Below are positions 3,756 to 64,000 of a DNA stretch of 64,000 nucleotides, piece after piece (the first letter of the stretch is position 1; each line of letters begins with the position of its first letter). The notes below the pieces were generated by a model. It saw only the letters and a list, made by a program, of their open reading frames with translations, had not been told where the DNA came from and ran no database searches. A program made the translations under genes and the position numbers. The stretch is from Neobacillus piezotolerans (GTDB lineage: Bacteria > Bacillota > Bacilli > Bacillales > Cytobacillaceae): assembly GCF_003362805.1 (NCBI RefSeq), contig NZ_QNQT01000001.1, forward strand, positions 682,001 through 746,000. Direction: 5' to 3'.

Positions 3756-4706
3756 GTGGAAGTAATAAATCTCGGATTTCCCCATAACCTGGATCAAAAA
3801 TCTGTGCCCGAGGCGGCCGTGGCGCTCGGGTATTTTGACGGAGTCCACCTTGGCCATCAGCGCGTCATTGCCGATGCGAAGGAGGAAGCCTCGAAAAAGG
3901 GAATAAAAACTGCTGTAATGACTTTCCACCCGCATCCAAAGGCTGTGCTTAGAAAGCTTGATCAGGATATAGAGCATATCACTCCCCTGAAGGAAAAGAT
4001 CGAGCGCATCCAGGGTGAGGGAGTCGATATATTATACATTGTTGATTTCAGCCCTGAATTTGCGAACCTGACCCCTCAGGAGTTTGTGGACCAATACATC
4101 ATTGGCCTTAATATTGTCCATGTTTCCGCCGGCTTTGATTATACATACGGGCGGATGGGGAAAGGTACGATGGAAACACTGCCGTTCCATTCAAGAGGGA
4201 AATTCACTTATTCGACCGTCGGGAAACTAAGCGAGGGCGGCGAGAAAATCAGTTCCACCCGCATCAGGAAACTATTGTCGGAAGGCCGGACAGATGAAAT
4301 AGCCGTGCTGCTCGGCAGGAATTACACAACCCCCGGGGTGGTCATCCATGGAGATAAGCGGGGAAGGACCATAGGGTTTCCAACAGCGAATGTTGAACCG
4401 GAAAACGGCTACCTGATCCCGCCTCCCGGAGTATATGCGGTACGGATTAAGATTGGCGGCCAATGGCATTTTGGGGTTTGCAATATCGGCTTTAAGCCGA
4501 CATTCAATAAAGACATGCGTGGGAAGCCATCCGTTGAAGTGCATATTTTTAATTTTTCAGATGATGTATACGGTGAAAATGTACTTGTTGAATGGCACAA
4601 ATATCTTCGGAAGGAACAAAAATTTTCAGGCATCGAACAGCTCGTGGCCCAAATCACGAAAGACAAGCTGGATGCGATGGTCCATTTTGGCATTCGTCCC
4701 GAATAA
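3756..4706 (+). CDS. ribF: Bifunctional riboflavin kinase / FAD synthetase
   Basis: This enzyme (316 aa; called RibC in B. subtilis) phosphorylates riboflavin to FMN and adenylylates FMN to FAD. The N-terminal nucleotidyltransferase domain shows GYFDGVHLGH (about residues 25-34) and the ISSTRIRKLL motif. The C-terminal flavokinase domain shows GRTIGFPTANVE and GVYAVRIKIGG. I chose GTG 3756, preceded by AAAGGTGA at 3741-3748; the family starts just before the ALGYFDG strand. No FMN riboswitch is visible upstream. It sits between truB and rpsO as in other Bacillales. Confidence 0.96.
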   Translation: MEVINLGFPHNLDQKSVPEAAVALGYFDGVHLGHQRVIADAKEEASKKGIKTAVMTFHPHPKAVLRKLDQDIEHITPLKEKIERIQGEGVDILYIVDFSPEFANLTPQEFVDQYIIGLNIVHVSAGFDYTYGRMGKGTMETLPFHSRGKFTYSTVGKLSEGGEKISSTRIRKLLSEGRTDEIAVLLGRNYTTPGVVIHGDKRGRTIGFPTANVEPENGYLIPPPGVYAVRIKIGGQWHFGVCNIGFKPTFNKDMRGKPSVEVHIFNFSDDVYGENVLVEWHKYLRKEQKFSGIEQLVAQITKDKLDAMVHFGIRPE

Positions 4707-46221: not shown

Positions 46222-46377
46222 TCATTTGGACAACGATCAGGTGAAATCAATGATTGCTGTCCAAATCCGATGCTCATTTTGACACGGATTGGGTGAAATC
46301 AATGTTTGGTGTCCAAATCCGATGCTCATTTGGACACCGATCAGGTGAAATCATTGATTGCTGTCCAAATCCAAGTC
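46222..46377 (+). repeat. 52-bp tandem repeat array A (three units) upstream of cotE
   Basis: Three units start at 46222, 46274 and 46326. Each carries arms ATTTGGACA (unit positions 3-11) and TGTCCAAAT (37-45) around 25 nt that include GTGAAATCA; the second unit has one mismatch in the first arm. Degenerate half-units are visible on both sides, each with a TTAAATCC motif near 46191 and 46399. The array is non-coding. Confidence 0.85.
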
Positions 46378-46445
46378 TGCTTTGAGAACTGACCGTGTTA
46401 AATCCGGTGTGGTTGTCGCACGCCACACAAATACAAACTACCCAA

Positions 46446-61416: not shown

Positions 61417-61617
61417 TTTATCTAAAATTCGGGAAAAGGGAGGCGGTTTAGGAGAATTTGTGGGCCGTTCCCATTCGAAATGCTGTTTTTTGTAAAACTG
61501 AAATGTTTTCTCCATGGGCGAATAGGATAGTAAGAAGGATATTGTTTCGAGCCCGTAACTTCCCGGTCCCGGAACATTGCAACAGAGAGATGCAATCGCA
61601 ATTGAGAGGTGAATGCT

Positions 61618-62565
61618 TTGGACCAGCCGATGCGCATGAAGGACAATGGCCAAATCAGCATTGTTCTGAATACACAGAAACGAAAACCGGCACCGATGCG
61701 GGAGCACGAACCCTCACTGCCCAAGGCGGTACAGAAAATAGAGCACGCGGCATTGAAGGAAATCGAAGAAGAGCTCGGCGCACTTGTCGGAATGGAAGAG
61801 ATGAAAAAAACGATCAAAGAAATTTATGCCTGGATATATATCAACAAAAAGAGGGAAGAAGCCGGCCTAAAGGCGAAGAAGCAGGCGCTCCATATGATGT
61901 TCAAGGGAAACCCCGGAACTGGGAAGACGACTGTCGCAAGGCTGATTGGCAAGCTTTTTTTAAAAATGAATGTCCTCTCAAAAGGGCATTTAATCGAGGC
62001 GGAGCGGGCGGATTTGGTTGGGGAGTATATCGGCCATACCGCACAGAAGACACGTGACCTCGTCAAAAAAGCAATGGGCGGGATCCTGTTCATTGATGAA
62101 GCCTACTCGCTCGGGAGGGGCGGGGAAAAGGATTTTGGGAAGGAAGCGATCGATACGCTTGTCAAGCATATGGAAGATAAGCAGCATGAATTCATTCTTA
62201 TCCTCGCGGGCTATTCAAGGGAAATGGAGTACTTCCTGTCGCTAAATCCCGGCCTCCATTCCAGGTTTCCGCTCGTAATCGATTTTCCCGATTATAAAAT
62301 CGACCAGCTCATGGACATTGCCGGGAGGATGGTAAAGGAAAGGGAATATTCGCTTAGCCACGAGGCGGAAAAGAAATTGAGGGAGCATTTGATCTGGATC
62401 AGGTCGGTCCTGTCGCCAAACAGCTTTTCGAATGGCCGCTATATCCGAAACATCATCGAAAAATCGATCCGCGCCCAGGCAATGAGGCTCCTCATGCAAA
62501 ACAGCTACGACCGTCATGACCTCATGACCATCCGAAGCAACGACCTTGTTTTCGAAGAAGATTAA
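61618..62565 (+). CDS. spoVK: Stage V sporulation protein K (AAA ATPase)
   Basis: SpoVK (315 aa) is a CbbX-type AAA+ ATPase needed for spore maturation. It shows ELGALVGMEEMKKTIKEIYA, Walker A GNPGTGKTT, Walker B GILFIDEAYSL and the arginine-finger region NPGLHSRFP. The start is TTG 61618, since GAGAGGTGA (61604-61612) is five bases upstream; an in-frame GTG at 61609 lies inside that site. In B. subtilis spoVK precedes ynbA/hflX; here a glutaredoxin-like gene and a repeat array are inserted after it. Confidence 0.94.
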   Translation: MDQPMRMKDNGQISIVLNTQKRKPAPMREHEPSLPKAVQKIEHAALKEIEEELGALVGMEEMKKTIKEIYAWIYINKKREEAGLKAKKQALHMMFKGNPGTGKTTVARLIGKLFLKMNVLSKGHLIEAERADLVGEYIGHTAQKTRDLVKKAMGGILFIDEAYSLGRGGEKDFGKEAIDTLVKHMEDKQHEFILILAGYSREMEYFLSLNPGLHSRFPLVIDFPDYKIDQLMDIAGRMVKEREYSLSHEAEKKLREHLIWIRSVLSPNSFSNGRYIRNIIEKSIRAQAMRLLMQNSYDRHDLMTIRSNDLVFEED

Positions 62566-62591: not shown

Positions 62592-62732
62592 TGTGTAAAA
62601 CCGTAAAAAAAGGGAATGACAATACTGTATCCTTTTTTGCAGATGATTGATTAGAGCAGAATCTTTGACAGCAAAAATGGAAATCGGCCATAATACCTGC
62701 AAGGGTATAAAAATGATGAGGAGGCATTAAAA

Positions 62733-62966
62733 ATGAACGAGATTACAGTTTACTCCACCAACACTTGACCGTACTGCACAATGATGAAAAACTTCCTTGA
62801 GGCTCAAGGATTGGACTATAACGAAGTGAATGTACAAAACGACCGCGCCGCCGCGGAAAAACTGGTGAACGAAACCGGACAAATGGGCGTGCCGCAAACA
62901 AAAGTCAACGGGCACTGGGTGCTTGGATTTGATCCTGAAACATTAATGCAATACGTGAAAGAATAA
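62733..62966 (+). CDS. Glutaredoxin-like selenoprotein with in-frame TGA (UPYC motif)
   Basis: The frame opens with ATG 62733 behind a perfect AGGAGG (62719-62724, eight-base gap). It reads MNEITVYSTNT, then TGA at 62766-62768, then PYCTMMKNFLEAQG and on to TAA 62966. Reading TGA as selenocysteine gives a 77-residue thioredoxin-fold protein with U12-P-Y-C15 in place of CPYC. The cis-proline motif MGVPQTKVNG and the C-terminal helix DPETLMQYVKE are intact, and no other stop interrupts the frame. UGA at the exact nucleophile position, plus the hairpin at 62794, favours selenocysteine over a nonsense mutation. Glutaredoxins with UPYC are known in some clostridia. Without Sec insertion only an 11-residue peptide, or a restart at ATG 62781, would be made. 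selA, selB, selC and selD are not in this window. Confidence 0.8.
62794..62810 (+). promoter_or_regulatory. Candidate bacterial SECIS hairpin
   Basis: A 7-bp stem TCCTTGA (62794-62800) and TCAAGGA (62804-62810) closes a GGC loop. The loop begins 32 nt after the TGA codon. Bacterial SECIS models require a loop about 16-37 nt after UGA with a G in its first two bases, and both conditions hold. It lies within the coding sequence, as bacterial SECIS elements do. Confidence 0.6.
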
Positions 62967-62988
62967 AGAGGCCGCGGCCTCTTTTTTT
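62966..62988 (+). terminator. Intrinsic terminator after the glutaredoxin-like gene
   Basis: AGAGGCC-GC-GGCCTCT with seven T, starting at the stop codon. Confidence 0.9.
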
Positions 62989-63068: not shown

Positions 63069-63854
63069 AATGTCATGAAAACTACATTTTCGTGACAGTC
63101 GAATGCAAAAAACCATCGGAATGTCACGCAACCCCCATTTGAGTGACATTCGAATGCAAAAATTCAATTGGAATGTCACGCAACCCCCACTTGAGTGACA
63201 TTCGAATGCAAAAATTCAATTGGAATGTCACGTAACCCCCACTTGAGTGACATTTGAACGCAAAAATCCAAATAAAATGTCACGCAACCCCCATTTGAGT
63301 GACATTCGAATACAAAAATCCAAATGAAATGTCACGCAACCCCCATTTGAGTGACAATCGAATGCAAAAATCCAAATAAAATGTCACGCAACCCCCATTT
63401 GAGTGACATTCGAATGCAAAAATCCAATTGAAATGTCACGCAACCCCCATTTGAGTGACATTCGAATGCAAAAATCCAATTGGAATGTCACGCAACCCCC
63501 ACTTGAGTGACATTCGAATGCAAAAATTCAATTGGAATGTCACGTAACCCCCACTTGAGTGACATTTGAACGCAAAAATCCAAATAAAATGTCACGCAAC
63601 CCCCATTTGAGTGACATTCGAATACAAAAATCCAAATGAAATGTCACGCAACCCCCATTTGAGTGACAATCGAATGCAAAAATCCAAATAAAATGTCACG
63701 CAACCCCCATTTGAGTGACATTCGAATGCAAAAAACCAATCGAAATGTCACGCAACCCCCATTTGAGTGACATTCATATTCAAAAATCCAAACGAAATGT
63801 CACGCAACCCCCATTTGAGTGACATTCGAATGCAAAAACCAATTGAAATGTCAC
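63069..63854 (+). repeat. 52-bp tandem repeat array C (about 15 units)
   Basis: Units begin with AATGTCAC at 63069 (degenerate), 63120, 63172, 63224, 63276, 63328, 63380, 63432, 63484, 63536, 63588, 63640, 63692, 63744 and 63796, with a last half-unit at 63847. Spacing is 52 bp throughout except 51 at each end. Each unit has arms AATGTCAC and GTGACATT (positions 1-8 and 24-31) around GCAACCCCCATTTGA. A linker CGAATGCAAAAATCCAA reaches the next unit. The block at 63172-63483 is repeated nearly exactly from 63484. No reading frame runs through it. Confidence 0.95.
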
Positions 63855-64000
63855 TCAACACCATATGATGAACATCCATTCAATTTCCAAAAACCTTATC
63901 CCTAGAGACTAGTAAAAACCCCTTTATGCATTCCCTCTCGCATACCAAGATAGAGAAATCGCCAAAGTTTTGTTATTATGGGGAAAAGAAAAAGATAATG
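63855..64000. other. Window end, no gene complete
   Basis: The array fades out before 63880. The last ~120 bases are AT-rich and may be the upstream region of the next gene (hflX/ynbA is expected here by B. subtilis order). No start codon with a ribosome-binding site is complete in the window. Confidence 0.4.

Follow-up and report, generated by a model that had tools for sequence, protein, structure and literature searches.

A predicted selenocysteine-containing glutaredoxin in Neobacillus piezotolerans and its Sec and Cys relatives in the Bacillaceae

The locus and its neighbourhood

The window, i.e. the whole 64,000-nucleotide stretch of Neobacillus piezotolerans DNA analysed here, covers positions 682001-746000 of contig C1 in a genome of 4.53 Mb (36 contigs, completeness 99.98%). 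Towards its end lies a short glutaredoxin-like gene (Grx, Table 1) with an ATG 8 bases past the AGGAGG, a TAA at 62964-62966 and one internal stop only, the TGA at codon 12. The initial annotation had described the same arrangement, an ATG with a perfect AGGAGG and a 78-codon frame uninterrupted apart from this TGA, followed by a terminator; our reading of the DNA agrees, including a terminator-like hairpin with a T-run after the gene. With TGA taken as selenocysteine (Sec, U), the product reads MNEITVYSTNTUPYCTMMKNFLEAQGLDYNEVNVQNDRAAAEKLVNETGQMGVPQTKVNGHWVLGFDPETLMQYVKE. The Pfam domain Glutaredoxin (PF00462) spans the TGA and scores 54.4 bits on the DNA with one TGA inside, and 64.9 bits on the protein with C for U. 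Under translation table 11 the frame yields only one open reading frame, of 61 codons and with its ATG at 62781, so that simple gene calling would give a shortened gene or none, as had been anticipated.

Table 1. Positions of the glutaredoxin gene, its signals and its upstream neighbour in the window
Feature	Position	Strand	Basis
AAA ATPase, upstream neighbour	61609..62565	+	open reading frame list and domain match; adjoins Grx in several relatives
Sigma-70-like promoter match, TTGACA-18-CATAAT	62665..62694	+	consensus match only; 1 found against 0.8 expected
Shine-Dalgarno AGGAGG	62719-62724	+	DNA reading; similar sites precede many relatives
Sec-glutaredoxin gene (predicted), 77 codons + TAA	62733..62966	+	DNA reading, Pfam, relatives, AlphaFold2 model
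UGA, codon 12, predicted Sec, first residue of UPYC	62766..62768	+	coincides with a Cys that never varies in the aligned homologues
Bacterial SECIS hairpin core (predicted), stem UCCUUGA/UCAAGGA of 7 bp, loop GGC at 62801-62803	62794..62810	+	conservation
Intrinsic terminator-like hairpin, then T-run	62965..62984	+	terminator scan

In and beyond the window the gene order is MreB-like, MiaA-like, Hfq-like, spoVK-like AAA ATPase, Sec-Grx, a 52-nt repeat array, hflX-like and ynbB-like. The AAA ATPase of Table 1 is the SpoVK-like one. The order spoVK-Grx-hflX recurs around Sec forms (L058, L059, L062, L063, L068) and around Cys forms (L094, L125, L140-L142). A conserved operon was looked for at 31 named TGA loci (L058-L085, L093, L106 and L120) by means of five test proteins. 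None was found: spoVK-like and hflX-like genes are both present at 5 of the 31 loci, the Sec loci just listed, and 25 have none of the five proteins nearby. At L070, which is located at a contig end, hflX and ynbB are present.

A different neighbourhood is seen at L077, where a pyridine-nucleotide-disulfide oxidoreductase-rhodanese fusion precedes the Sec gene and genes for TusA-rhodanese, DsrE, TauE and rhodanese-metallo-beta-lactamase proteins are in the vicinity; the neighbours of L072 are similar. Such sulfur-type neighbours occur at two of the 25 clustered TGA loci (25 of the 31 named ones), and a Cys homologue with 57% identity lies inside a sulfur operon of this kind on a plasmid of Mesobacillus foraminis. 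These are hints that some Sec-Grx members may be linked to persulfide chemistry, and they come from loci other than the window's own copy and are no evidence for it.

Between the terminator of the Sec-Grx gene and the hflX-like gene there is an array of 52-nt repeats (14.9 copies, 91% matches, 63085-63859), and 52-nt repeats recur at 46222-46404 in a shorter array (about 3 copies). Constant-size 52-nt tandem repeats are known in Bacillus (PMC8161180), and the array at 63085-63859 fits this description.

Relatives and coding constraint

Some Grx match at E 0.001 is present in 188 of the 193 genomes of the family, and a TGA-containing ortholog in at least 40 of the 193, including all 8 of the genus itself; the count is a minimum, as matches weaker than about 1e-9 are unlisted, and one of the 40 (G069) matches over residues 1-65 only. 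The DNA of all 40 listed genomes was read, and the TGA is at the CPYC position throughout (loci L028-L057, L127 and L129-L139). Among the named relatives, Bacillus sp. FJAT-27245 (94%) and FJAT-27445 (90%) come closest in identity; Mesobacillus subterraneus and Neobacillus mesonae are further named carriers of TGA genes. It had been suggested that close relatives be inspected for Cys or for frame decay at this locus: the 8 genomes of the genus all keep the TGA with the frame intact. In the alignment of homologues, UGA coincides with Cys as had been proposed, columns C12 and C15 being the same in all 21 rows (with U written as C).

The search of the order comprised 397 genomes with matches listed at E 1e-22 or better. 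Among these listed matches, TGA-containing Grx-like genes outside the family occur in four genomes (G195, G314, G564, G224), all of which have SelB over the cut-off. The Cys form is seen in some relatives of about 80-82% identity (G003, G007, G162, G258); G258, which is outside the family, has a Cys form 80% identical to the window protein and no SelB over the cut-off. Phage or plasmid carriage was considered and rejected, as no close relative was found in the three collections searched: 5 stretches of viral_contigs matched a pattern and none encodes a relative, the phage collection gave 3 records at 33-38% identity, and 6 plasmid records reached 45-69% identity without a close ortholog among them.

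A few individual genes deserve mention. The Salirhabdus copy in G564 (L093/L183, about 3975-4010) keeps the TGA, the motif and the hairpin, its first codons are replaced by stop-containing sequence, and it looks like a broken copy. The gene in G224 (L180, 3989-4228) is predicted to belong to a distant Sec-glutaredoxin subfamily with the motif TPTUPHC and 48% identity; this UPHC gene has a different stem with the loop GGA, counted 32 nt past the UGA, and its genome has selB. The frame of L106/L138 (Mesobacillus boroniphilus, G069, a draft assembly) is lost near the C-terminus, by mutation or sequencing error. L079 (JAGGQZ010000029.1) is titled Chryseobacterium sp. ISL-80 and holds a Bacillaceae-like Sec-Grx gene with 81% identity; the label looks wrong.

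The pairwise substitution counts against the window gene comprise ten listed loci, i.e. nine relatives, since L036 and L064 are the same. For the part of the gene past the TGA, codons 19-26 excepted, nonsynonymous distances range from 0.015 to 0.146; the synonymous distance amounts to 0.92 for the nearest relative (L029) and exceeds the range of the correction for the other eight. Codons 13-18 and 27-76 differ from L029 by 2.0 nonsynonymous and 18.0 synonymous changes. This low nonsynonymous against high synonymous change indicates that these lineages retain the protein in its read-through form. Codons 1-11 differ from L029 by 2 nonsynonymous changes on 26.2 sites and 4 synonymous changes on 6.8 sites, and within codons 19-26 the synonymous changes number 0 for eight of the nine relatives and 0.5 for L038. 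The recurrence of the TGA in the family and the sense constraint past it confirm that this gene with an in-frame TGA is real and beyond chance.

Selenocysteine machinery in the genome

The initial annotation proposed to look in the same genome for selA, selB, selD and tRNA-Sec(UCA), and all four are present. One tRNA-Sec match exceeds the Rfam gathering score (65.2 vs 47 bits), with the anticodon tca according to ARAGORN. SelA scores 474.8 bits against PF03841, SelB 362.2 bits (cut-off 242.25) and SelD 396.3 bits (cut-off 125). Among 14 control genomes, 5 have tRNA-Sec over the cut-off and 2 each SelA, SelB and SelD. A SelA match with one in-frame TAG was noted in another genome (G161:C17:5297-6679).

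Besides Grx the genome holds at least three further candidate Sec genes. The selD gene carries its own in-frame TGA, in LSTKAGUGCK, and 2 of the 13 Fdh-alpha match rows have an in-frame TGA, namely L187 (C32:193972; 799.3 bits, over the family cut-off) and L191 (C12:210354; 202.8 bits, under it), with the contexts NRTUHAPSVAG and ARIUHSSTVAG. In folds of sub-fragments, both FdhA-like genes form a hairpin with a GGTCT loop past the UGA, and selD a 7-bp hairpin with the loop GTT.

In the family, selB is present in 170 and selA in 172 of the 193 genomes. All 40 listed TGA-Grx genomes have both genes, and none appears among the 20 genomes listed as lacking selB or the 20 as lacking selA (hypergeometric 0.003, relatedness ignored). 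Since Sec decoding is common in the family, this co-occurrence is modest evidence when taken alone.

A conserved hairpin past the UGA

The initial annotation did not mention a hairpin with the Grx UGA; it is added here. The pattern TCCTTGA-NNN-TCAAGGA, i.e. a 7-bp stem with a 3-nt loop, is present in all 42 distinct intact TGA genes, and in all of them the loop starts 32 nt past the UGA; the loops are GGG (21), GGC (16), GTC (4) and GGA (1). The scan covered 113 loci, 112 of which matched and gave 82 distinct genes, 40 with Cys and 42 with TGA, the latter including the broken Salirhabdus fragment; the 42 intact TGA genes are the remaining 41 and L172. In the fragment one stem base differs, leaving a G-U pair. 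The 7+7 stem goes with the TGA: it is found in 42 of 43 TGA genes as opposed to 2 of 63 Cys genes.

The case for a SECIS element comes from codon conservation. Codons 20-26 have zero synonymous variation in the 41 intact TGA genes, and codon 19 nearly none; the codon entropy of codons 19-26 sums to 0.05 bits, the mean over the gene being 0.88 bits per codon, and none of 100,000 random codon sets was as low. These codons give 0.74-1.65 bits in the Cys group, whose overall divergence is higher (mean 1.13 bits per codon). The stem is invariant across the TGA clade, so that no covariation is shown. The stability of the isolated 65-nt RNA fold is no better than that of shuffles (z -0.11), and the energy of the isolated hairpin was dropped as a proof of SECIS for this reason. 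A terminator scan also flags the hairpin, as terminator-like on the minus strand.

A published model of the bacterial SECIS (bSECIS, PMC13188914) gives an apical loop of 3-9 nt, an upper stem of 4-16 bp, a G within the first two loop positions (mostly G[G/U]) and a distance of 16-37 nt from UGA to loop. The Grx hairpin agrees with these figures in loop, stem, loop G and spacing, and by this model it would be a bacterial SECIS.

Sec and Cys forms

Among 106 distinct genes, the codon at position 12 is TGA in 43, TGT in 43 and TGC in 20. The tree of these genes (63 Cys, 42 TGA and one TGA fragment) was built without codon 12 and codons 19-26 by a 'quick' method with 201 columns and midpoint rooting; 19 of its 103 inner branches are starred and 51 open, and the long branches L119 and L104 carry a warning. 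All 43 TGA rows fall within one group of 47, together with 4 Cys rows (support 84, not starred). Five TGA/Cys changes are needed on the tree compared to a shuffled mean of 33.6, a count in which gain and loss are not distinguishable.

Of the four Cys rows, L104 sits on a long branch and its placement may be wrong. The remaining three all carry TGT: L049 (G003) has stem and loop intact, L165/L184 (G258, no selB over the cut-off) keeps the stem with the loop TTC, and in L042 (G007) the stem is damaged. These genes are apparent SECIS fossils, and such hairpin remnants in Cys genes suggest loss, i.e. change from Sec to Cys. Our own reading is that the Sec form may have arisen once and returned to Cys about three times with decay of the SECIS; the tree itself gives no direction and is no proof of it. 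Both forms can be found in one genome: in G087 the Cys copy (L128) adjoins a spoVK-like gene and the Sec copy (L127) is elsewhere.

Structure and relation to known glutaredoxins

The AlphaFold2 model, computed with Cys for Sec from a 19-row alignment, has a mean pLDDT of 94.8 and a pTM of 0.83. Its elements follow in the order E-H-E-H-E-E-H, and the helix 13-24 begins directly past residue 12. Foldseek matches are glutaredoxins and NrdH/thioredoxin-like proteins, with 4tr1 (cGrx2) at rank 1. BC3987 (PDB 3zij, a 78-residue chain), presumably a Cys form from Bacillus cereus, has a TMq of 0.86, an rmsd of 1.3 and 33% identity to the window Grx.

The best PDB sequence match is cGrx1 of Clostridium oremlandii (7c10, 7c12; E 5.8e-13), with a Foldseek TMq of 0.83 (chain A) and 36-37% identity. 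According to PMC7642778, which we connect with 7c10 by the entry title 'Dithiol cGrx1', cGrx1 is a native selenoprotein, a small glutaredoxin with catalytic Sec in U(or C)PXC, and its proposed substrate is Sec-MsrA. This substrate was rejected for the window Grx: the source genome has a single MsrA match, which is free of in-frame stops and reads GCFWC.

A Grx UxxC selenoprotein family assigned to PF00462 is tabulated in PMC13188914 and PMC9312934; the window Grx resembles it in the Pfam domain, the UxxC motif, the one predicted Sec and the bSECIS downstream. Of the NCBIfam models, the YruB family (TIGR02196) is the best (E 7.6e-25, nearly the whole length), its score of 87.2 bits with Cys for Sec being 1.35 under the curated cut-off of 88.55. 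The TIGR02196-type selenoprotein 'distant Grx-like protein 1' is UxxT in PMC9312934, whereas the window Grx is UxxC. The Uxx-star model NF041212 gives 45.7 against 66 bits, and NF047338, NF041211 and NF041114 are under their cut-offs as well.

The 2006 survey PMC1794560, in its available part, has a row 'Glutaredoxin 3' and names glutaredoxin in Geobacter sulfurreducens, Alkaliphilus metalliredigenes (2) and Moorella thermoacetica. For Bacillales the same part gives 3 selenoproteins in 3 families, unnamed there, with no mention of a Bacillaceae Grx clade. Our literature search, which was open-licence with most subscription papers outside it, found no paper on a Bacillaceae Sec-glutaredoxin. 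The clade is apparently a new one, of an already known Sec-glutaredoxin family.

Discussion

We consider it very probable that the gene makes a 77-residue selenoprotein glutaredoxin in which the UGA at codon 12 is read as Sec. The initial annotation had claimed as much, a Sec-containing UPYC glutaredoxin in an organism that decodes UGA as Sec, and the machinery, the alignment with Cys and the conserved TGA speak in its favour. This reading stands with refinements: the Sec form constitutes a clade, YruB is the best model, and some relatives at about 80-82% identity have Cys.

It is exceedingly improbable that the gene is an ordinary Cys glutaredoxin with a nonsense mutation or a sequencing error. 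A single base separates TGA from TGT or TGC, and the Salirhabdus copy outside the family does have a broken 5' end; however, the TGA is shared by many separate records across the family, no decay is seen past it, and the hairpin tracks the TGA. It is also very unlikely that UGA is decoded otherwise than as Sec, i.e. as Trp or Cys or by a changed code. The evidence is indeed DNA only, but tRNA-Sec(UCA), SelA, SelB and SelD are all encoded in the genome, and the hairpin, which agrees with the bSECIS constraints in PMC13188914, is lacking in 61 of the 63 Cys homologues.

Equally improbable in our view is a selenium sensor or truncated protein, where translation without selenium would stop at codon 12 or restart at Met17/Met18 to yield a protein of 61 residues that lacks the nucleophile. 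The ATG at 62781 does open such a frame, and the pairing of a Sec with a Cys copy in at least one genome (G087) would be compatible with it. On the other hand, no Shine-Dalgarno was seen before 62781, codons 1-11 are constrained too in the comparison with L029, and according to the model a start at 62781 loses the first strand (residues 4-8).

By the known bacterial mechanism, SelB-GTP carrying Sec-tRNA(UCA) would bind the hairpin loop and insert Sec at codon 12. The UPYC motif and the fold suggest a mechanism: Sec12, located at the N-terminal end of helix 1, would attack a disulfide or persulfide, Cys15 would resolve the mixed selenylsulfide to form an internal Se-S bond, and a cellular thiol or reductase would re-open this bond. 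We hypothesize that the window Grx is a persulfide/disulfide reductase.

Bacillaceae typically use bacillithiol instead of glutathione. A more far-reaching idea, which we regard as tentative and rather unlikely, is that the Sec-Grx of these bacteria may reduce persulfides of proteins and small molecules, or selenylsulfides, and that its clade may have undergone repeated Sec-to-Cys reversion with staged SECIS fossils (intact with TGT; loop G lost, stem kept and no selB over the cut-off; stem damaged).

The Sec-Grx genes add a selenoprotein clade of at least 40 genomes to the Bacillaceae and their near kin, where the 2006 survey (PMC1794560) has three selenoproteins only in all Bacillales. The gene is also an example of truncation by table-11 gene finding. 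Finally, the Sec and Cys forms resemble each other closely, and their SECIS elements range from intact through damaged to lost; they would constitute a natural series for addressing the benefit of selenium to a thiol oxidoreductase and the loss of Sec.
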